This document shows, piece by piece, positions 27,893 to 62,944 of a stretch of DNA of 64,000 bases. Position 1 is the stretch's first letter. Each line of letters begins with the position of its first letter. Where the stretch lies: positions 62,001-126,000 of the forward strand of contig VBIW01000039.1 of assembly GCA_005880915.1 (NCBI GenBank), in the 5' to 3' direction. The stretch comes from Chloroflexota bacterium. GTDB taxonomy: Bacteria; Chloroflexota; Dormibacteria; Dormibacterales; Dormibacteraceae. The position numbers and the translations under genes are program-made. The notes below the pieces were generated by a model, which did no database searches, was not told where the DNA came from, and saw only the letters and a list, made by a program, of their open reading frames with translations.

Positions 27893-28036
27893 TTCAGGTG
27901 GGTGCGTACGTCCCCACCTCTCATTGATCCGTTCAGGTGGGTGCGTAGGTCCCCACCCGGGCCGCTCCGCGGCCCGACCTCCCCGGCAAGCGGGGAGGTG
28001 AAGCTCTCCGCCCCCGGCGAGCGGGGAGGTGAAGCT
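27893..28036. repeat. Dispersed repeat cluster, family C copy 1
   Basis: A direct repeat (TTCAGGTGGGTGCGTA.GTCCCCACC at 27893 and 27931) is followed by GGGCCGCTCCGCGGCCC and two CCCCGGC(A/G)AGCGGGGAGGTGAAGCT units. It fills the gap between the SDR and aminotransferase genes. The end of the last unit provides part of the putative -10 (TACGAT, 28036-28041) of the next gene. Confidence 0.8.
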
Positions 28037-28048
28037 ACGATTCGAACC

Positions 28049-29236
28049 GTGAGCACTGCGGTCCGATTTGCGGAGCGGATGTCGCGCCTGGGGACGGAGG
28101 GCGCCTTTGTGACGCTCGCCCGCGCCCGCAAGCTCGAGGCCGAGGGAAAGCGCATCGTGCATCTGGAGATCGGCGAGCCCGACTTCGCGACGCCGGACAA
28201 CATCGTCGAGGCGGCGATCGGCGCGATGCAGAACGGGTACACGCACTACACGCCGGCGAGCGGGATCTTCGAGGCGCGGGAGGCGGTCGCCGGCTTCGTC
28301 AGCAAGATGCTCAAGACACAGGTCGACACGGACGACGTCGTCCTGGTGCCCGGCTCGAAAAACGTCCTCCTCTTCACGCTGCTCGCATGCATCGAGCCAG
28401 GCGACGAGGTGATCCTGCCCGACCCCGGCTATCCGGCATACGCATCGCAGGTCAACTTCATCGGCGGGGTGCCGAAGCCAGTGCGGCTCCGCGAGGAGAG
28501 CGGCTTTCGCATCGACCTCGACGAGCTGGCCTCGCTGGTCACGCCGAAGACACGAATGCTGATCATCAACACGCCGCAGAACCCGACGGGCGGAGTGCTG
28601 ACCAATGAAGACGTCGACTTCGTATGTGAGCTCGCGCAGAAGCACGACCTGCTCGTGGTTTCCGACGAGATCTACAGCCAGCTGGTCTACGGCTTCCAGC
28701 ATGTGTCGCCGCTGTCGCGTCCCGGCATGCGCGAGCGGACCGTGCTGATGGACGGCCTGTCGAAGTCCTACGCGATGACTGGCTGGCGCCTCGGCTACGC
28801 AGTGGCCCCGCGCGCGCTCGCGGCCAAGCTGGACACGCTGATGATCAACTCGTCATCCTGCGCTGCCGCATTCACCCAGATCGCTGCAATCGAAGCTCTC
28901 AGCTCACCTGAGTCCGAGCATGCGGTGCACCGCATGGTGAAGGTTTTCGAGCACCGGCGAAACCTGGTCGTCGACGGCATCAACGAGATTCCTGGCATGC
29001 GCTGCGCGCGGCCGCAGGGCTCCTTCTACGCGTTCCCGAACATCGCGGGAACCGGCTTCGACGAGCACGAGCTCGCGGATCGCCTGCTCGATGAGGCCGG
29101 CGTCGCCGTGCTGCCCGGTACGGCGTTTGGAGACGGTGGGAAGGGTTTCATACGCCTCGCTTACACGCAGTCGGAGGACGAGCTCAAGCTGGGGCTTCGC
29201 CGGATCAAGGAGTTCGTCGCCGCGAACAAGAAATAA
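28049..29236 (+). CDS. Class I/II PLP-dependent aminotransferase
   Basis: A fold-type I aminotransferase of 395 residues in the aspartate/LL-DAP-like group. VHLEIGEPDFATPDNIVEAA is the N-terminal substrate region, INTPQNPTGGVL the PLP-stacking Asn motif, VSDEIYSQLVY the Asp pair, and DGLSKSYAMTGWRLGY the Schiff-base Lys. GTG 28049 is chosen; the frame upstream reads through the family C repeat. TACGAT lies 7 bases before the GTG. It ends 12 bases before the formate dehydrogenase gene and may be co-transcribed with it. Amino acid specificity is unknown. Confidence 0.92.
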   Translation: MSTAVRFAERMSRLGTEGAFVTLARARKLEAEGKRIVHLEIGEPDFATPDNIVEAAIGAMQNGYTHYTPASGIFEAREAVAGFVSKMLKTQVDTDDVVLVPGSKNVLLFTLLACIEPGDEVILPDPGYPAYASQVNFIGGVPKPVRLREESGFRIDLDELASLVTPKTRMLIINTPQNPTGGVLTNEDVDFVCELAQKHDLLVVSDEIYSQLVYGFQHVSPLSRPGMRERTVLMDGLSKSYAMTGWRLGYAVAPRALAAKLDTLMINSSSCAAAFTQIAAIEALSSPESEHAVHRMVKVFEHRRNLVVDGINEIPGMRCARPQGSFYAFPNIAGTGFDEHELADRLLDEAGVAVLPGTAFGDGGKGFIRLAYTQSEDELKLGLRRIKEFVAANKK

Positions 29237-29248
29237 CATGGTCAGCCC

Positions 29249-31156
29249 ATGGACGATGGTTTAACCCGTCTGACCGAGCCGCTGGTCAGAGAGGGCGGAC
29301 GTCTCCGTCCGGCCTCGTGGGAAGAAGCGCTCAGCAAGGCCGCCGCCGGCTTCGACGCTGCACGACAGAAGGGGCCGCAAGCGTTCGGCATGTTCAGCTG
29401 CTCCAAGACGACCAACGAGATGAACTTCATGGCCCAGAAGTTCACGCGAGTCGTCATGCACAGCAACAACGTCGACAGCTGCAACCGGACTTGACACGCC
29501 CCAAGCGTCGCCGGTCTGGCGACAGTGTTCGGAGCCGGAGGCGGGACATCTTCCTATCAAGAGGCTGAGGACACGAACGTCATCTTCCTGTGGGGTTCTA
29601 ACGCGCGTGAGACGCACCCGATCTTCTTCCACCACTTGCTGCGCGGTGTGCGCAACGGCGCGCGGCTGATCGCGGTCGATCCGCGCCGAACGAGCTCGGC
29701 CGAATGGGCCGACGTGTGGCTGGGCATCGACGTCGGCAGTGACATCGCGCTGGCGAACGCGATGGCGCGCGTCATCATCCACGCCGGCCTGGCAAGCAAG
29801 GAATTCATCGCCGGTGCCACGACTGGATACGAGGAGTTCGCGAGCTGCGTCGAGGCTTACACGCTCGAGCGCGCGGAGGCTGAGACGGGCGTGCCCGCCG
29901 ACGCGATCGAGAAGGTCGCGCTCGACTACGCCCACGCGGAACGCGGAATGATCTGTTGGACGCTCGGCATCACCGAGCATCACAACGCGACGGACAACGT
30001 GCTCGCGCTGATCAACCTCGGTCTCTTGACCGGAAAGGTTGGCCGCTATGGATGCGGGCTCAACCCGCTGCGCGGCCAGAACAACGTGCAGGGCGGCGGC
30101 GACATGGGAGCGATCCCGGCGCGCCTCCCCGGGTTCCAGGACCTCGAGATTCCAGCCATCCACGAGAAGTTCGCCAGGGCGTGGGGCGGCGCGGAGTTTC
30201 CGAGCAAGAAAGGCTGGCACCTCAGCGAGATGTTCGAGGCGATGGATCACGGCGAGCTGCGCTCGATCTATATCGTCGGCGAGAACCCGGCCCGGAGCGA
30301 GGCGGACCAGACGCGCGCTGTGCGTCTCCTGAGCGGGCTTGATCACCTGGTCGTGCAGGACATCTTCCTGACGCAGACGGCGGAGCTCGCGCACGTCGTG
30401 CTTCCCGCGGCGGCGGGCTGGGCCGAGTCGGAGGGCACCGTCACCAACAGCGAGCGCCGGGTGCAGCGGGTGCGCCGCGCCCTCGAGCCGCCGCCGGGTG
30501 CGCGCGACGATATCGACATCATCGGCGAGCTCGCGCGACGCCTCGGATCCGATTGGGGCCACCCGACGGCTGAGGAGGTGTGGGACGAGTGCCGCGCCCT
30601 GTCGCCGATGCACGCGGGCATGGCGTACCGGCGGCTCGACGAGCTCGGCGGGATCCAGTGGCCGTGCCCAGACGAGTCGCACCCCGGGACGCAGTTCCTG
30701 CACGGCCGGTTGTGGAAGGACCCGGTGGAAGGGCCTCGCGCTCCATTCCACGCCGTGGAGAACGATCCTCCCGTCGACAAGCTCACCGAGGAGTTTCCGA
30801 TCCGGCTCACGACGGGGCGGCGCCTGGACTCGTTCAACACCGGCGTTCAGACGGGCGAGTACACCTCGCCGCTGCGCAAGGGCGAGGCGCTGCTCATATC
30901 ACCGGAGGACGGCACGCGATTGGGCGTCGAGGATGGGGAGTGCGTGCGGGCTAGCTCGCGTCGAGGCTCTGTCGAGGTCAACGTTCGATTCGAGCCCTCG
31001 CTGCGTCCCGGTCTTGCCTTCATGACCCTTCATTTCCCTGACCAGGTCGCGACCAACGTGCTGACCATCGACGCGACCGACCCCAAGTCGGGTACGGCCG
31101 AGTTCAAGGCGAGCGCCATCCGGATCGACAAGATTCCCGCGCCGGCCGCGACTTAG
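29249..31156 (+). CDS. fdhA: Selenocysteine formate dehydrogenase, catalytic (molybdopterin) part
   Basis: Catalytic body of a molybdenum/tungsten formate dehydrogenase. The frame is open from ATG 29249 to TAG 31156 except for TGA at 29492-29494, codon 82. That TGA sits in NRT-U-HAPSVAGL, matching the Sec-His motif of FdhF-type enzymes (RV-U-HGPSVAGL), and a SECIS-like hairpin follows, so I read it as selenocysteine. GCGLNPLRGQNNVQGGGDMG holds the active-site Arg region, and the C-terminal MGD-binding domain begins near PIRLTTGRRLDSFNTG. The N-terminal [4Fe-4S] domain expected before RLTEPLVREGGRL is absent and is found at the end of the 32811 gene. Length is 635 residues. The next gene starts directly after the stop. 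Confidence 0.93.
29492..29523 (+). promoter_or_regulatory. Selenocysteine TGA codon and bacterial SECIS-like hairpin
   Basis: TGA at 29492-29494 is followed by stem GTCGCC (29507-29512), loop GGTCT (29513-29517) and stem GGCGAC (29518-29523). The GGTCT apical loop and its distance from the TGA are the same as in the E. coli fdhF SECIS element recognised by SelB. Confidence 0.9.
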
Positions 31157-32818
31157 TTGGACATCCGCACGACCGGGGGACCGGCGACCGCCGAGGAGAT
31201 GGCGGCGGTCGACGGCCTTCTCGGCGAGCCGGAGCCTGTTGACCATCGCGTTGCCTATGGCGGGCGCGCTGCGCGTTCGCAGCGGCACCTGCTTCTTCCG
31301 GTGCTGCATACGATCCAGGACCGCACCGGCTGGGTGAGCCGCGGCGCGCTGGAATATGCGTGCCGGCGCCTGTCGATCCCGCCCGCGGAGGCATATGGGG
31401 TGGTCAGCTTCTACGCGCGCTTCGCACTCGAGCCGCGCGACGCGAAGGTGGTGCACGTCTGCGATGACATCGTGTGCAGCCTCGTAGGGGTCAAGCCGGT
31501 GGAGGGGGCGATTCGCGTGCCTTGCCTCGGCCTGTGCGACCACGCACCGGCGGCCCTGGTCGAGCGATTCGGGGCTAAATACGAGGCGATGCAGATCGCG
31601 CCGTTCGGCCCCGCTGCGGACTCGCTTTTCACGCCCCTCTCCCCAACCCTCTCCCCTGAGGGGAGAGGGGGATTGCTGCGGCGGGTGGGGGTCGTCGATC
31701 CAGACGATATTGAGAGCTACCAGGCCCATGGAGGCTTTGCCGCCCTGAAGCGCGCGCGCGAAATTGGGCCGGCGGGCGTGATCGGCCGGCTGAAAGACGC
31801 CAATCTGCTCGGCCGCGGTGGTGCCGCTTTTCCGACCGGACGCAAGTGGGAGTCGGTCGCCGCGGCGGCGGGGCGGCCGCACTACCTGGTCTGCAACGCG
31901 GATGAGTCGGAGCCGGGAACGTTCAAGGACCGCGTGTTGATGGAGAACGACCCGTTCGCGGTGGTGGAGGCGATGGCGATCGCCGCTTTCGCCGCTGGAT
32001 GCGAGAGCGGCTTTATTTACGTCCGCGACGAGTACCCGCTGGCGCGCAGGCGCATCGGCAACGCGATCTCGCAGGCACGAGGCGCGGGGTTGCTCGACGT
32101 CGACATCGAGGTGCGGCGCGGCGCCGGCGCCTATATCTGCGGCGAGGAGACCGCGCTCTTCAACTCGATCGAAGGGAAGAGGGGAGAGCCGCGCAACAAA
32201 CCGCCTTTTCCGGTCGAGGTCGGGCTTTTCGGCAAGCCGACTCTGGTCAACAACGTCGAGACGCTGGTGAATGTGCTTGACATCGTCAACGGCGAGTTCG
32301 CCGACACGCGGATCTTCTGCGTGTCCGGCAACGTCAGCAGGCCCGGTGTCTACGAGGTTCCGATGGGGACGCCTCTGCGTTCGCTCCTCGAGATGGCCGG
32401 CGCTGGTGGCGTCCAGGCGGTGCTGCTGGGTGGGGCGGCGGGATCGTTTCTCACACCCCAGCAACTTGATGTGCCTTTGAGCTTCGAGGGGACGCGCGCG
32501 ATCGGGGCAACCCTTGGATCCGGCGCGGTGATCGTGTTCGACGAGGCGGCTGACATGAAGCAGGTCCTCTTGCGGATCGCTCGGTTTTTTCGGGACGAGT
32601 CTTGCGGGCAGTGCGTGCCTTGTCGCGTCGGGACGAAGCGGCAGGAGGAGATCCTCGAGCGGATGCTCACCGAGGGGAATGGCGATCGGAGTGCCGATGT
32701 CAGGTTGCTGAGCGATATCGCTCAGGCGATGCGCGACGCTTCGATCTGCGGTCTCGGCCAGACCGCGGCCAACGCCGTCGCTTCGGGGTTGACGCAGCTC
32801 AAGGTGCTGAATGGCTGA
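31157..32818 (+). CDS. NuoE-NuoF fusion: diaphorase subunit of NAD-linked formate dehydrogenase
   Basis: A single 553-residue protein. Residues 1-150 are NuoE/FdsG-like: helical part, then a thioredoxin-fold [2Fe-2S] site with Cys102, Cys107, Cys123 and Cys127. Only 15 residues separate the Cys pairs, against about 35 in usual NuoE. Residues 158-172 ([14 protein letters not shown]) are a translated dispersed repeat. From about 190 onward it is NuoF/FdsB: GRGGAAFPTGRKWE and NADESEPGTFKDR bind FMN and NADH, and Cys483, 486, 489 and 531 hold the N3-type [4Fe-4S] cluster. It should pass formate electrons to NAD+, or run in reverse. TTG start immediately follows the fdhA stop; its end overlaps the next gene by 8 bases. 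Confidence 0.93.
   Translation: MDIRTTGGPATAEEMAAVDGLLGEPEPVDHRVAYGGRAARSQRHLLLPVLHTIQDRTGWVSRGALEYACRRLSIPPAEAYGVVSFYARFALEPRDAKVVHVCDDIVCSLVGVKPVEGAIRVPCLGLCDHAPAALVERFGAKYEAMQIAPFGPAADSLFTPLSPTLSPEGRGGLLRRVGVVDPDDIESYQAHGGFAALKRAREIGPAGVIGRLKDANLLGRGGAAFPTGRKWESVAAAAGRPHYLVCNADESEPGTFKDRVLMENDPFAVVEAMAIAAFAAGCESGFIYVRDEYPLARRRIGNAISQARGAGLLDVDIEVRRGAGAYICGEETALFNSIEGKRGEPRNKPPFPVEVGLFGKPTLVNNVETLVNVLDIVNGEFADTRIFCVSGNVSRPGVYEVPMGTPLRSLLEMAGAGGVQAVLLGGAAGSFLTPQQLDVPLSFEGTRAIGATLGSGAVIVFDEAADMKQVLLRIARFFRDESCGQCVPCRVGTKRQEEILERMLTEGNGDRSADVRLLSDIAQAMRDASICGLGQTAANAVASGLTQLKVLNG
31630..31670. repeat. Dispersed hairpin repeat, family A copy 2 (inside coding sequence)
   Basis: Near-identical to the copy at 1204-1245. 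It lies exactly at the junction between the NuoE-like and NuoF-like domains and is read in frame, so the fusion may have arisen when this element replaced the stop/start region of two separate genes. Confidence 0.88.
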
Positions 32819-33680
32819 GACGGTTTTCGTTGGGCTTCCGAAGAGGTTCGTGTCGCTGAGCGTCGATGGTCGGGAGGTCGAGGTGCTCGAGGGGTCGACG
32901 ATCCTCGATGCGTGCCGTCGGCTTGAGGTGGACACGCCGACTTTGTGTCAGCTCGACAGCCTCACTCCGGTCAACGTTTGTCGTGTCTGCGTCGTTGAGG
33001 TGGAGGGGGCGCGGGTCCTTGTGCCTGCCTGTTCGCGGAAGGTCGAGGCGGGGATGAAGGTGAGGACCGATTCGGAGCGGGTGCGGCACAGCCGCCGGCT
33101 CGTGCTCGAGCTGCTGGGCTCGTCGGTTGACATGTCGCTTTGTTCGGCGCAGGTGCGGGGGTGGATGGAGCGGTACGGCGCGGTGCCTTCGCGGTTCGGG
33201 GCTGGGGCGGCCACGGTGGCGCAGCCGGTGAAGGTGGACAACGAGCTCTATGTGCGCGATTACTCGCGCTGCATCCTTTGTTACAAGTGCGTCGAGGCTT
33301 GTGGGGTCGATGCGCAGAACACGTTTGCCATCGGTGTTGCGGGGCGGGGGTTTGATGCGCACATCTCGACCGAGTTCGACACGTCGCTGCCTGACTCCGC
33401 TTGCGTGTACTGCGGCAACTGCATCGGGGTGTGTCCAACCGGCGCGCTGATGTTCAAGAGCGAGCACGACATGCGCGGGGCGGGGACGTGGGATGAGGGG
33501 CGGCAGGCGGTAACGGAGACGGTGTGTCCTTACTGCGGGGTCGGGTGCATGCTCGAGCTGCACGTGCAGGACAACTCGATCGTCAAGGTGACCTCGCCGC
33601 TCGATAACTCCGTCACCTCGGGGCACCTTTGTGTGAAGGGGCGGTTCGGGTTTGAGTTTGTGCAGAGGAGGAGGGGGTAG
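32811..33680 (+). CDS. N-terminal iron-sulfur part of formate dehydrogenase alpha (NuoG/FdhA-like)
   Basis: A 289-residue electron-wire protein. Cys46, 57, 60 and 74 form a [2Fe-2S] ferredoxin site. Cys154, 157, 160, 164 and Cys198, 201, 204, 208 form two [4Fe-4S] clusters. Cys239, 242, 246 and 274 (TVCPYCGVGC...HLCVKGRFG) form the [4Fe-4S] domain that normally opens the molybdopterin domain. The protein stops ten residues after LCVKG. The His-Cys-ligated cluster usually found after the [2Fe-2S] domain is not recognisable; only His93 and Cys111 remain. It must pair in trans with the catalytic part encoded at 29249-31156. ATG start overlaps the fusion gene. Confidence 0.92.
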   Translation: MAETVFVGLPKRFVSLSVDGREVEVLEGSTILDACRRLEVDTPTLCQLDSLTPVNVCRVCVVEVEGARVLVPACSRKVEAGMKVRTDSERVRHSRRLVLELLGSSVDMSLCSAQVRGWMERYGAVPSRFGAGAATVAQPVKVDNELYVRDYSRCILCYKCVEACGVDAQNTFAIGVAGRGFDAHISTEFDTSLPDSACVYCGNCIGVCPTGALMFKSEHDMRGAGTWDEGRQAVTETVCPYCGVGCMLELHVQDNSIVKVTSPLDNSVTSGHLCVKGRFGFEFVQRRRG

Positions 33681-34089: not shown

Positions 34090-35274
34090 ATGTCAGACGA
34101 GCTCGAAACACTGGAGTCTGCGGCTCGCGATTTCGAGCTCTCGGCTGACTTTGATTTCGTAGATCCCAAGCGCCTGTCGGCGGTCATCGACCGGCTCCAG
34201 GGCGTCCTCTGCAGAGTGGTAGACGGGGCTCGGTCGCGTGGCGACCACCTGCTGGCCGGCCAGAGCGCGTGTAGCTGGGTCGCCAACACCTGCGCCATGT
34301 CCAAGAACGCGGCCAGCGACCGGCTCTGCGTCGGTGCCCAGCTCAAGACGATGCCCAGGATCGCCCAGGCGCTCAGCTCAGGCGAGATCGGCTACCAGGC
34401 GGCTTCTGTGATCTGTCATCTGCAGGAGCACGTCAATGAGATCGGGGCTCGGATCGATGAGGAGATGTGGATCGGCAACGCGCGCAAGTTCTCGCTCAAG
34501 GATCTGAAAGACATTGCGGTCAGCACCTGGCACGGGGTCGATCCGGAAGGCTTCTGCCGCGCAGTGGAGGAGAACTTCGAGCGGCGCCAATTCTTCATCA
34601 GCGAGTCGGGCGGCATGTTCCGCGTCGACGGATGGCTTGACCCTGAGGGTGGGGCAGCGCTGGAGTCGGCGATCGACGCCCTGGCCAAGCCGCTCGGTTC
34701 AGACGATCGGCGGACGCCGCGTCAGCGCCGGGCCGACGCGCTGACCGAGCTGACTCACCACGCGCTGCAAGCGGGCACGATTCCGCGGCGCAATCGGGTC
34801 CGGCCGCACATCACCGTCCACACCACGGTGGAAGGCTTGAAGGGCGAGCTTGGTGCAGCGGCCTCGGAGCTGCAGCCCGGGATGCCGATCTCGAGCAAGA
34901 CCGTGCAGAGATTGGCGTGCGACGGGATGCTCTCCAGGGTCCTCAAGGCTGACTCCCAGGTGGTCGATGTGGGCCGAGCCACTCCGAATGTCTCGCCGGC
35001 GCAGTGGCGAGCCCTCAAGGCCCGGCACCGGACCTGCGGGTTTCCCGGTTGCGACCGGCCGGTCAGCTGGACCAGCCCGCATCACATCGAATTTCGGGCC
35101 AGAGGTGGGCCCAGCACCCTGCGCAACCTGCTCCCTCTCTGCCACCACCACCACCGACTCGTGCACGAGGGTGAGTGGCAGGTGGTCCAGGCCGGCGAAG
35201 GGGTGACGTTCATCCCTCCCGATCACGAGATTCCGCGGCGAGTTCGCAGCCCAGGAGTCCGCTGGGCGGCCTAG
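34090..35274 (+). CDS. DUF222/HNH endonuclease domain protein (13E12 type), copy 1
   Basis: A 394-residue protein with an N-terminal DUF222 helical region (LSSGEIGYQAASVICHLQEH and LTELTHHALQAGTI are recognisable) and a C-terminal HNH nuclease motif. The HNH segment reads HRTCGFPGCDRPVSW, then HHIEFRARGGPSTLRNLLPL and CHHHHRLVHEG, with Cys pairs and catalytic His in place. It resembles the REP13E12 proteins that are repeated in mycobacterial genomes. The paralogue at 53608-54843 is clearly related along the whole length. Both genes share promoter and upstream element. The role is unknown; a nuclease linked to repetitive DNA is plausible. Confidence 0.93.
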   Translation: MSDELETLESAARDFELSADFDFVDPKRLSAVIDRLQGVLCRVVDGARSRGDHLLAGQSACSWVANTCAMSKNAASDRLCVGAQLKTMPRIAQALSSGEIGYQAASVICHLQEHVNEIGARIDEEMWIGNARKFSLKDLKDIAVSTWHGVDPEGFCRAVEENFERRQFFISESGGMFRVDGWLDPEGGAALESAIDALAKPLGSDDRRTPRQRRADALTELTHHALQAGTIPRRNRVRPHITVHTTVEGLKGELGAAASELQPGMPISSKTVQRLACDGMLSRVLKADSQVVDVGRATPNVSPAQWRALKARHRTCGFPGCDRPVSWTSPHHIEFRARGGPSTLRNLLPLCHHHHRLVHEGEWQVVQAGEGVTFIPPDHEIPRRVRSPGVRWAA

Positions 35275-53559: not shown

Positions 53560-53680
53560 CAGCGCCTTCGGCGCAACCTCCCGATAAGTGGGCAGGAACA
53601 GCCATCGCTAAGCGGCTTCCGGTTCAGCCCCTCCGGCGCCTTCGGCGCCACCTCCCCATGAATGGGGAGGACGCCACCCC
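53560..53680. repeat. Dispersed hairpin repeat, family B copy 3
   Basis: AGCGCCTTCGGCGCAACCTC, a diverged hairpin CCCGATAAGTGGG, then CCCCTCCGGCGCCTTCGGCGCC and CCTCCCCATGAATGGGGAGG. It encodes the tail and stop region of the leftward HNH protein (53608-54843). Confidence 0.8.
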
Positions 53681-54843
53681 GTGCGGATTCGGCGCCGCAC
53701 TTCGTGGTCGGGTGGGATGAACTTGACGCCTTCTTCTGTCTGGACCACCTGCCATCCGCCTTCATGGACCAGGCGGTGGTGGTAGTAGCAGAGGGGGAGG
53801 AGCTTGGGCAGGTTGGTCGGTCCGCCGTGCGCCCAGAACTCGATGTGATGGGGCTGGGTCCAGTTGATGGGCCGGTCGCAGCCGGGAAAAGCGCAGCCGC
53901 GGTGCCGGGCCTTGAGTCCGCGCCACTGCGCGCCGGAGACCGCCCGCGTCGCCCGCCCGACATCGACCACCACCGAGTCCGCTTTCAGGACCCGGCAGAG
54001 GGTGCCGTCACAGGCCAGGCGTTGCACGGTCTTGCTCGAGACCAGCATCCCGGTCTGCAGCTCCGAGGCGGCAGCGCCAACCTCGCCCTTCAAGCCCTCC
54101 AGCGTCGTGGTCACTGTGATGTGGGGGCGGACGCCTTGCCGCTTGGGCAGCGTGCCGGCTTCCAGGGCGTGGTAGGTGAGCTCGGTCAAGGCGTCGGCCC
54201 GGCGCTGCTTTGGCGTCCGAAGGTCATCGCCGCCCAGTCGCTTGGCCAGGGCGTCGACAGCCGACTTGAGGGCTGAGCCGCCTTCAGGGTCCATCACCCC
54301 GCTGAGGTGGTACATCCCGTCCATCTCGCTGATCTGGAGGAAGCGCTCTTCGTAGTTCTCTTCGGTCTCGCGGTCGAAACCATCCGGGTCGACCACGTAG
54401 CGGGTGTGGTTGGAGAGCAGGTTCAGGTCCTTGATCGAGAACTCGCGGGCATAACCGATCCACTCCGCTTCGTCGAGGCGCTCGCCTTTCTCGCCCAGCT
54501 TGTGGCTCAGGTGGCAGATCACCGAAGCCGACTGGTAGCCGATCTCGCCTGAGCTCAGCCTCTCCGCCACCTCAGGCAGCGCTTCCAGTTGCTTGCCGAC
54601 GCAGAGCCGGTCGGAGGCCGATGACTGCGACATGGTGCAGGTGCTCATGACCCAGGAGACGGCGCTGCAGTGGCCCCGAGCCAGGTGGTCACCGCGCTCA
54701 GCGCCTCGCCGCACCGCCCGCGAGAACATGCACTCCAGCCGGTCGATCTGAGAGCGGAGCTGCTTCGGATCTACCTCCAGCTCGTCCGCCTGGCGCATGA
54801 ACTCCGTGACGGCAGACTCAAACCGATCGAGCGGGGAGAGCAT
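53608..54843 (-). CDS. DUF222/HNH endonuclease domain protein (13E12 type), copy 2
   Basis: A 411-residue paralogue of the 34090 gene with matching DUF222 segments (LSSGEIGYQSASVICHLSHK, LTELTYHALEAGTL) and HNH core: HRGCAFPGCDRPINW, HHIEFWAHGGPTNLPKLLPL, CYYYHHRLVHEGGW-like CYYHHRLVHEG. The last 20 or so residues (HSWGGGAEGAGGAEPEAA) come from a family B repeat. The promoter and a further upstream element are nearly the same as those of copy 1, so the pair arose by duplication of a unit that included its control region. Function is unknown. Confidence 0.93.
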   Translation of the reverse strand: MLSPLDRFESAVTEFMRQADELEVDPKQLRSQIDRLECMFSRAVRRGAERGDHLARGHCSAVSWVMSTCTMSQSSASDRLCVGKQLEALPEVAERLSSGEIGYQSASVICHLSHKLGEKGERLDEAEWIGYAREFSIKDLNLLSNHTRYVVDPDGFDRETEENYEERFLQISEMDGMYHLSGVMDPEGGSALKSAVDALAKRLGGDDLRTPKQRRADALTELTYHALEAGTLPKRQGVRPHITVTTTLEGLKGEVGAAASELQTGMLVSSKTVQRLACDGTLCRVLKADSVVVDVGRATRAVSGAQWRGLKARHRGCAFPGCDRPINWTQPHHIEFWAHGGPTNLPKLLPLCYYHHRLVHEGGWQVVQTEEGVKFIPPDHEVRRRIRTGWRPPHSWGGGAEGAGGAEPEAA

Positions 54844-61133: not shown

Positions 61134-62944
61134 GCTCAGCCGTTCAGACCGACCGGTGGCGCGGTGTTGCTGCGGAGGAGGTCGACGAGTTTTCGCCCAG
61201 CGTCGCCGGGCTCCTTCGGCAGCGGAGCCGCCGGCTGCTCGCGAGCCTGGCTCGGCCTTATCGCGGCCGCCTTGTGCTGGCGGCGGCACTCATCTCGATT
61301 CGATCCGCCGCGTACCTGTCGCTCCCTTACCTGGTCGGCCTTGGGATCGACAGGGGCGTCCGCGCCGGCAACCTGACCGCGCTCGTCCAGGTGGTCGGAG
61401 TTCTTCTGTTCGCGCTGATGGTCAACGCCGGGGCCAACTATGTGTTCCTGCGCGTGTCGGGCCGTATCGGTGCGGACATCCTGTTCGACCTGCGGCGGAT
61501 GCTTTTCGCCCACGTCCAGGAGCTTTCGCTCTCGTTCTATGAGCGCTACACGTCGGGCCGCATCATCTCCAGGCTCACGTCGGACATCGACGCTCTCAAC
61601 GAGCTCCTGGCCACCGGGCTCACCTCGGTCATCACATCCCTGATCTCGGTGGTGGCGATCACGGTCATCCTGATGCGCCTCGACTTTCGCCTGGGCCTGG
61701 TGACCCTGGTCACGATGCCTCTCGTCATCGCGCTCACCTGGTGGTTCCGCGCCAACTCCGCGCTTTCGTACCGCGCAGTGCGGCGCGCCATCGTGCTGGT
61801 GATCGTCCACTACGTTGAGTCGCTGGGCGGCATCCGCGCCGTGCATGCCTTCCGCCGCGAGCCGCGGAACCAGGAGATCTTCGAGGACGTCAACGGCCGC
61901 TACCGCGACGCCAACATCTGGTCGAACCGGCTGGTGTCGACGTATGGCCCAGCGATCAACCTGCTCGGGCGGCTCACAACCGCTTCGGTGCTGCTGTTCG
62001 GCGGTTACCTCGTCGTGCAGGGACAGGTCACCCTCGGCGTGCTGACCGCGTTCGTCCTTTACCTGCGCCAGTTCTTCGACCCGATGCAGGAGCTTTCCCA
62101 GTTCTACAACGTGTTCCAGGCCGCCGGTGCGGCGCTTGAGAAGCTCGCCGGGGTCCTGGAGGAAGCACCGACCGTGCCAGAGCCGGTTGCGCCGGTTGCC
62201 CTGCACGATGCCGCTGGGGCGATCGCGTTCGAGCACGTGACGTTCGCGTATCTCGAGACCCCGGTGCTGCACGACATCGACGTTCGCGTGCCGGCGGGGC
62301 AGATCGTGGCGTTGGTGGGGGAGACCGGGGCGGGCAAGACCACCATGGCGCGGCTGATCGCCCGGTTCTACGACCCGACCTCTGGCCGCATGACGCTGGA
62401 TGGGGTCGACCTGCGCTCGATCGCGGTTTCGGATCTCCGGCGCGCGGTCGTGATGGTCACGCAGGAGAGCTTCCTGTTCTCCGGCACGGTCGGGGACAAC
62501 ATCCTGTTCGGCCGGCCGGGTGCCAGTCGGGAGGAGGTGGAGAACGCGGCTCGCGTCATCGGCGCGCACGAATTCATCGCCGCGATGCCCAACGGGTACG
62601 ACACCGACGTGCGGCGGCGAGGGGTGCGGCTGTCTTCCGGGCAGCGCCAGTTGGTTGCATTCGCGCGCGCTTTTCTGGCCGACCCGCGGGTGCTGATCCT
62701 CGACGAGGCGACCTCATCTCTGGACCTGCCTTCCGAGCGGCTGGTCCAGCGCGCACTGCGCACGCTGCTGCGCGGGCGGACCGCTTTCATCATCGCCCAC
62801 CGCCTGTCGACCGTTGAGATCGCGGACCGGGTGCTGGTCATCGATGCGGGGAGGGTGGTGGAAGATGGGGCGCCGGCCGAGCTGCGGAGGGGCGAGGGGC
62901 GGTACGGGTCCCTGCATCGCGCGTGGGTGGAGTCGCTGGCCTGA
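61130..62944 (+). CDS. ABC exporter half-transporter B (catalytic partner)
   Basis: A 604-residue exporter half with six membrane helices and a canonical ATPase domain: Walker A LVGETGAGKTTMARL, Q-loop MVTQESFLF, signature VRLSSGQRQLVAFARAF, Walker B VLILDEATSSLD with the catalytic Glu, and the H-loop AFIIAHRLST. It forms the consensus ATP site together with the preceding subunit. A roughly 35-residue hydrophilic N-terminal extension precedes helix 1. GTG 61130 overlaps the previous stop as GTGA. It ends just before a family A repeat and a convergent GNAT gene. Confidence 0.96.
   Translation: MSSAVQTDRWRGVAAEEVDEFSPSVAGLLRQRSRRLLASLARPYRGRLVLAAALISIRSAAYLSLPYLVGLGIDRGVRAGNLTALVQVVGVLLFALMVNAGANYVFLRVSGRIGADILFDLRRMLFAHVQELSLSFYERYTSGRIISRLTSDIDALNELLATGLTSVITSLISVVAITVILMRLDFRLGLVTLVTMPLVIALTWWFRANSALSYRAVRRAIVLVIVHYVESLGGIRAVHAFRREPRNQEIFEDVNGRYRDANIWSNRLVSTYGPAINLLGRLTTASVLLFGGYLVVQGQVTLGVLTAFVLYLRQFFDPMQELSQFYNVFQAAGAALEKLAGVLEEAPTVPEPVAPVALHDAAGAIAFEHVTFAYLETPVLHDIDVRVPAGQIVALVGETGAGKTTMARLIARFYDPTSGRMTLDGVDLRSIAVSDLRRAVVMVTQESFLFSGTVGDNILFGRPGASREEVENAARVIGAHEFIAAMPNGYDTDVRRRGVRLSSGQRQLVAFARAFLADPRVLILDEATSSLDLPSERLVQRALRTLLRGRTAFIIAHRLSTVEIADRVLVIDAGRVVEDGAPAELRRGEGRYGSLHRAWVESLA

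Follow-up and report, generated by a model that had tools for sequence, protein, structure and literature searches.

A formate dehydrogenase alpha subunit divided between two genes in permuted order in a Chloroflexota genome and its relatives

The nicotinamide adenine dinucleotide (NAD)-dependent formate dehydrogenase (FDH) of Rhodobacter capsulatus, FdsABGD (Protein Data Bank (PDB) entry 6tg9), is encoded by an fdsGBACD operon, and in the portion of its description available to us the diaphorase attaches to the N-terminal part of FdsA, which resembles HoxU (PMC7171172). In the solved contiguous FDHs that we matched, the [4Fe-4S] domain lies beside the pterin cofactor in the catalytic chain. 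The locus described here, in which that domain is encoded by another gene, lies in a stretch of 64,000 nucleotides, hereafter the window (positions 62,001 to 126,000 of contig VBIW01000039.1, assembly GCA_005880915.1), from a Chloroflexota bacterium of the Dormibacteraceae; the sequence is a draft genome of 228 contigs with an estimated contamination of 8.59%, and its closest relatives are Dormiibacterota/Chloroflexi metagenome-assembled genomes (MAGs). A first-pass annotation had proposed that FdhA, the FDH alpha subunit, is split here, with the C-terminal part encoded first, the N-terminal iron-sulfur part last and a NuoE-NuoF fusion between the halves; gene coordinates, Pfam domains and coverage of the TIGR01591 model bear out the split, the reversed order and the fusion. 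We found no description of a split FdhA in the literature searched, which did not extend to bioRxiv or most subscription journals.

The split, its cut point and the selenocysteine signals

All three genes lie on the forward strand. The first (29249..31156, ATG start, 635 residues if an in-frame TGA is read as selenocysteine, Sec) encodes the catalytic C-part, the second (31157..32818, TTG start) the diaphorase chain, and the third (32811..33680, ATG start), which overlaps the second by 8 bp, the separate iron-sulfur N-part. The only Pfam domains of the C-part are Molybdopterin (PF00384, 226.2 bits) and the molybdopterin guanine dinucleotide-binding Molydop_binding (PF01568, 86.3 bits), which together give it the Mo/W-bis-pyranopterin guanine dinucleotide (bis-PGD) domain of an FDH. 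The N-part carries Fer2_4, Fer4 (two clusters) and Molybdop_Fe4S4, and the diaphorase carries a thioredoxin-like [2Fe-2S] domain (2Fe-2S_thioredx, profile positions 10-85 of 145), Complex1_51K, SLBB and NADH_4Fe-4S. The locus thus has a NuoE-/NuoF-like diaphorase in the same operon, as in enzymes of the FdsABG kind. Of the 84 loci examined, 80 had both NuoE and NuoF, and in 79 of these the two share one open frame.

The two halves are complementary on TIGR01591, without overlap: the N-part covers positions 1-50 of 672 (54.0 bits) and the C-part positions 52-672 (643.5 bits). Neither half alone reaches the curated cut-off of 666.25, the C-part because its first 51 positions are missing, and neither is therefore recognized as the single-chain equivalog; nor does the locus encode a single-chain FdsA/FdhA, the [4Fe-4S] domain being on the N-part only and not with the bis-PGD domain. 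The C-part frame extends open just four codons upstream of the ATG at 29249, leaving no room for an in-frame iron-sulfur domain ahead of it.

Conserved ligands are found on both halves. The C-part has a Sec/Cys metal ligand followed by His, and an active-site Arg, residues to which we presume the usual active-site roles; position 82, His83 and Arg275 are invariant in 40/40 sequences. An alignment of the N-part from the 67 loci in which C, N and NuoF were all represented shows each of 16 cluster cysteines retained in at least 66: those of the [2Fe-2S] cluster (46/57/60/74), of two [4Fe-4S] clusters (154/157/160/164 and 198/201/204/208) and of the Fe4S4 domain (239/242/246/274). Lys276, after the Fe4S4 cysteines, is retained in 67/67 and is, we assume, the counterpart of the lysine bridging cluster and pterin in FDH-H of Escherichia coli. 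The structure model of the C-part fits FDH-H from residue 55 onward. A His-rich insert of ~20-30 residues (e.g., GHHHAP), which the window's protein lacks, separates the Fer2 and Fer4 regions of the N-part in the majority of loci not closely related to the window's own (L074, L087, and L106, for example).

The first-pass annotation had the location of the 29249 protein right, but its frame is not open as had been supposed, an in-frame TGA at codon 82 (29492..29494) having been overlooked; because this one codon interrupts the frame, the open reading frame (ORF) list gave just 29525-31156. The TGA directly precedes HAPSVAGL (NRT*HAPSVAGL), the Sec/Cys position of FDHs, at which the aligned E. 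coli FDH-H carries Sec (written as X), and it is conserved in 84/84 loci checked. Fifteen bases from the start of the TGA begins a hairpin resembling a Sec insertion sequence (SECIS) element (29507..29523, forward strand; stem GTCGCC/GGCGAC, loop GGTCT), recovered as an alifold consensus of 84 sequences; all 6 pairs are retained in 81/81 loci and the loop in 80/81, with one pair varying among C-G, U-G and U-A. We believe GGUCU to be the hairpin loop of E. coli fdhF as well. In single-sequence folding, judged by eye, the hairpin with its 5-nt loop formed in 8 of 12 sequences; it was shifted in L083 and did not form in L106, L125 or the window's own sequence, whose SECIS region folded alone favours a different structure. 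Because the stem overlaps conserved codons, its conservation is not by itself evidence for an RNA structure. The window's genome also encodes SelA (403.9 bits) and, adjoining it on contig C48, SelB (334.2 bits); its tRNA-Sec scores 72.4 bits (gathering threshold 47). In-frame UGA, downstream hairpin, SelA, SelB and tRNA-Sec, as in a bacterial selenoprotein, are thus all present. Of 20 further genomes with the split that were tested, SelA was found in 19, the exception being that of L121. Judged by these signals, the C-part is a predicted selenoprotein with Sec at position 82.

Recurrence, ancestry and neighbourhood of the split genes

Whether the split and its order recur in related lineages, a question raised by the first-pass annotation, was addressed in a scan of genome contigs from which the best 80 of 572 matches were kept; these are the most similar matches and not a random sample. 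The order C-part, NuoE, NuoF, Fer2, Fer4, Fe4S4 on one strand is complete in 60 of the 80, each with exactly one match to the Fe4S4 domain; the other 20, which have none, show their visible pieces in the same order up to a contig end, and no locus contradicts it. A C-part of at least 60% identity occurs in 32 of 61 near genomes and an N-part likewise in 30 of those 32, the other two (G006 and G011) having contigs that end inside the C-part or NuoF. In a phylum-wide survey of 301 genomes, 37 had a C-part homologue of 61-100% identity, and the other matches listed had at most 45% identity and were mostly frames of ~690-1,380 aa, with or without a TGA; seven further loci opened from the 37 gave the complete order in six and a contig end in one. 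By this gap in identity, the split FdhA is a discrete clade.

The order is found on a single-record 5.1-Mb chromosome (L127) and in an isolate, Aquisphaera insulae JC669 (L125), and the record titles name Chloroflexota, Dormiibacterota, Acidobacteriota, Planctomycetota, Gemmatimonadota, Actinomycetota, Rokuibacteriota and others. MAG titles are fallible: L075 (JAJPKS010000244.1), titled Bacillota, matches a contig of G036, from the window's own family, in length and in the positions of its hits; the two appear to be identical, and the title is probably wrong. After a single origin, the split enzyme would have spread widely. A planctomycete fdhA selenoprotein with horizontal transfer, which may or may not be of the same family, has been reported (PMC4807772).

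Departures from the compact layout are few. Between the C-part and NuoE lie extra genes in L087, L096, L101, and L117 (gaps of 2.1-4.0 kb) and in L135 (3.9 kb), and 1.2 kb separates NuoF from the N-part in L104. The most divergent split member, L133 (G289:C115; 61% identity), has the order unchanged, with NuoE and NuoF in separate frames in the ORF list. The N-part frame of L073 is broken, and the C-parts at G019:C26 and G267:C137 have an additional in-frame TAA or TAG; these could be either sequencing errors or real. One candidate contiguous form, an 886-aa frame in G045, was rejected, as its flank has the split order and its extra length is open upstream frame with no Fe4S4 match. Plasmid homologues (485 records) were likewise set aside: all were below 60% identity, those among the matches listed were ordinary FdhF, and the one plasmid locus opened (L132) has FdhF adjoining an [FeFe] hydrogenase.

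The first-pass annotation had also raised the possibility of an intact fdhA elsewhere, with this locus decayed in relatives. No intact soluble FdhA was found in the window's genome, because its three Molybdop_Fe4S4 matches are the split N-part, a second Sec-type FDH and NuoG, and the relatives keep the split genes intact. The second FDH (G000:C31:35020-35790, L002) has an in-frame TGA and a twin-arginine-like leader.

Trees of the C-part placed the split sequences on one side of a single branch, with a Shimodaira-Hasegawa-like approximate likelihood ratio (SH-aLRT) of 100 in a tree of 57 rows (43 chosen split and 14 contiguous) and support of 100/100 in a mixture-model tree of 34 (21 and 13). 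In an N-part tree of 21 split N-parts, 9 contiguous FdhA and 11 NuoG sequences, the split N-parts form one clade (99/96), and a 100/100 branch separates them, together with contiguous FdhA, from NuoG; recruitment of the N-part from NuoG was rejected on this grouping. The sister of the split clade consists of the same four contiguous rows (L144-L146 and L152) in the C-part and N-part trees. Because the halves share this contiguous sister clade, both come from one FdhA, cut once: by these trees, a single ancient fission of a contiguous FdhA produced both halves.

In the 13 contiguous loci that we opened, the catalytic part is immediately preceded by the Fe4S4 domain. Two of them (L140 and L141) have the order NuoE-NuoF-FdhA (E-F-A), and a third (L148) begins inside NuoF and continues into FdhA; NuoE and NuoF were not seen in the fetched stretch of the others, some of which are cut short. 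Since contiguous relatives have the order E-F-A, and R. capsulatus has fdsGBACD, the split operon looks like a circular permutation of it, and we infer that E-F-A was the order before the split, no more firmly than that because the sister clade does not show it. A tandem duplication of NuoE-NuoF-FdhA from which the outer parts were then lost would be a possible two-step route to the present order, C-part, NuoE, NuoF, N-part.

Upstream of the C-part by 12 bp lies a pyridoxal phosphate-dependent aminotransferase (27902..29236, forward strand), which we treat as a neighbour rather than a component of the enzyme. The split genes of Dormiibacterota have an aminotransferase of this one family next to them on the upstream side, and those of Terriglobia (L106, L108, L111, and L113) have one on the downstream side; another directly follows the contiguous fdhA of L150 (L150:3691-4830), and a search of 103 loci gave homologues in 24. 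In 2 of the 103 a thiamine pyrophosphate (TPP) enzyme lies near the fdh genes (L091:14023-15789 and L102:3728-5437); its best scores are against models of acetolactate synthase, followed by those of 2-hydroxyacyl-CoA lyase, with every score below the model's cut-off. This context of aminotransferase, TPP lyase-like enzyme and major facilitator superfamily efflux permease pointed to no firm physiological role. A repeated palindrome, CCCTCTCCCC...GGGGAGAGGG, has five copies in the window (31634-31669 and about 1208, 55236, 55834, and 63022), the copy at 31634 lying in frame within the NuoE-NuoF linker, where it codes for 14 residues. Two HNH-type proteins, 65% identical, are encoded on opposite strands of the window at 34090-35274 and 53680-54843.

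The proposed enzyme and competing readings

We consider it highly probable that these genes encode a cytoplasmic, NAD-type, Sec-containing Mo- or W-FDH of three chains, with the [4Fe-4S] domain acting in trans, and that one fission and a permutation gave rise to it. The C-part chain would hold the bis-pyranopterin cofactor with Sec82, His83 and Arg275, and the N-part chain would hold one [2Fe-2S] and three [4Fe-4S] clusters. The Molybdop_Fe4S4 domain at the C-terminus of the N-part would dock on the C-part at the site that the fused domain occupies in an ordinary FdhA, so that the cluster nearest the pocket and the lysine that follows would be supplied in trans, and the N-part would also carry NuoEF, as HoxU-like arms do. 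Electrons would pass from formate to the Sec-bound Mo/W, the docked [4Fe-4S] cluster, the two Fer4 clusters, the [2Fe-2S] cluster, the NuoF [4Fe-4S] cluster, flavin mononucleotide and finally NAD+. The docking, the electron path, the substrate, NAD as acceptor, the assembly and the activity are what we infer for such a complex; its cofactor pocket is probably formed jointly by two chains, as suggested by the exact complementarity of the halves, their conserved ligands, their shared ancestry and their co-occurrence.

Several observations weigh against this reading. Pairwise distances among the 67 loci are correlated between C-part and N-part (0.77, with a maximum of 0.35 in 500 permutations), between C-part and NuoF (0.85) and between N-part and NuoF (0.71); the first of these values was obtained without an unlinked-gene control and is exceeded by that for C-part and NuoF. 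The structure model of the N-part is poor, with a mean predicted local distance difference test score (pLDDT) of 53.6 and mostly below 50 in the Fe4S4 domain, so the fold search with it carries little weight, and its Foldseek matches 7t30_A and 6tg9_A (template modelling score 0.40, root-mean-square deviation ~20) were not used as evidence. The N-part tree carries long-branch warnings and omits 4 of the 13 contiguous rows (L142, L143, L147, and L149), whose N-part pieces were wanting or whose span was too long. Finally, neither NuoE nor NuoF was seen in the stretch retrieved for the sister contiguous clade, and the gene order before the split rests on relatives more distant than that clade.

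Among the alternatives, the one that survives best keeps the same complex and changes its chemistry, making it NADP-dependent, electron-bifurcating or CO2-reducing rather than a NAD+-reducing formate oxidase; we regard this as unlikely, though with a real chance of being correct. Diaphorases of the NuoEF type occur in bifurcating complexes also, the best PDB matches of NuoEF include 9bov_B and the HydB subunits, and bifurcation is suggested for HylCBA-FdhA in the part of that report available (PMC5736913). However, NuoF here has one C-terminal 4Fe-4S domain, the terminal Fer4 domains of the HydB type are not listed by Pfam, and the catalytic site and operon resemble those of NAD-dependent FDH.

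Much less probable is that the C-part is a stand-alone Mo-enzyme with no [4Fe-4S] domain, and that the N-part and NuoEF form an independent diaphorase of the NuoG/HoxU kind, in which the Fe4S4 domain is vestigial or has a different partner. One could envision this because modules like the N-part are separate chains elsewhere (e.g., 9mqx_A, a NuoG-like chain of 247 residues from a bifurcating aldehyde oxidoreductase) and because the few loci with intervening genes noted above separate the C-part from NuoE. Against this, the Fe4S4 domain retains all four of its cysteines, and the lysine after them, each in no fewer than 66 of 67 loci; moreover, the cut is exact on TIGR01591, the N-part derives from FdhA and not NuoG, and the C-part is accompanied by the N-part in every near genome apart from the two with contig ends. 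That the halves are made apart and then joined into one chain, for example by a trans-splicing intein, we find barely conceivable: with the DNA order reversed, the usual single chain could be regained only by a reaction in trans, and beyond this nothing speaks for it, whereas the Pfam scan of the three proteins gave no intein or splicing domain and both new ends created by the split are short or variable tails. Assembly error, which the first-pass annotation had wanted excluded, or a decaying pseudogene deserves almost no credence despite the fragmented, partly contaminated draft and the frame breaks in L073, G019, and G267, since the same architecture, with conserved ligands, recurs uncontradicted across many independent assemblies, the chromosome-level record and the isolate included.

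If the three-chain, two-chain-pocket enzyme is accepted, a clade that has kept its [4Fe-4S] domain on another chain, apparently for very long, implies that such a pocket can be built from two separate pieces. The split makes the interdependence of cofactor insertion, Sec insertion and iron-sulfur wiring directly testable, and it provides a naturally occurring division point for the engineering of CO2-reducing enzymes. We are evenly divided on a broader proposal: that one ancient event both cut off the [4Fe-4S] domain and permuted the operon, that the resulting FDH with a two-chain pocket is now widespread in soil and subsurface bacteria, and that its catalytic chain may mature separately, with insertion of Sec and the Mo/W cofactor, to be wired to the electron arm later as a natural plug-in FDH. 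The split enzyme is probably under-annotated in soil genomes because its halves escape single-chain models such as TIGR01591 and the UGA truncates the ORF.

Comparison with known systems

Like the R. capsulatus enzyme, as far as the accessible description of the latter goes, the proposed complex has a NuoF/NuoE-like diaphorase on an iron-sulfur arm beside a bis-MGD domain (PMC7171172). In alignment the N-part corresponds to FdsA residues 15-303 and the C-part to residues 308-933. However, FdsA is a single chain with Cys, in contrast to two chains with Sec and a permuted gene order here, FdsB and FdsG are separate where NuoE and NuoF are fused here, and the motif for the His-ligated cluster of FdsA was not seen in the N-part in the alignment. 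FDH1 of Methylorubrum extorquens reportedly contains W and Cys. Its alpha chain (7vw6 and 8j83) is contiguous, unlike that described here, and aligns with the N-part at 70-340 and with the C-part at 372-984.

Nearest in catalytic-chain sequence are E. coli FDH-H (1aa6/1fdi) and FdhF of the hydrogen-dependent CO2 reductase (HDCR; 7qv7). FDH-H is likewise a Sec enzyme with a UGA followed by a hairpin, but in both FDH-H and HDCR FdhF the [4Fe-4S] domain occupies residues 1 to ~55 of the same chain, whereas here it belongs to another gene. HylCBA-FdhA of Clostridium acidurici and others resembles the present system in pairing a Sec-containing FdhA with separate NuoEF-like and iron-sulfur subunits; in the available part of that report, 4Fe-4S and 2Fe-2S domains are on FdhA itself, whereas the catalytic chain here has none (PMC5736913). 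A split Mo/W chain is also found in formylmethanofuran dehydrogenase FwdB/FwdD, and the accessible text on the Methanothermobacter wolfeii enzyme describes an extra subunit that replaces the FdsA C-terminus (PMC7171172). In FwdB/FwdD it is thus the C-terminal part that is split off, whereas in the FdhA described here it is the N-terminal [4Fe-4S] part.

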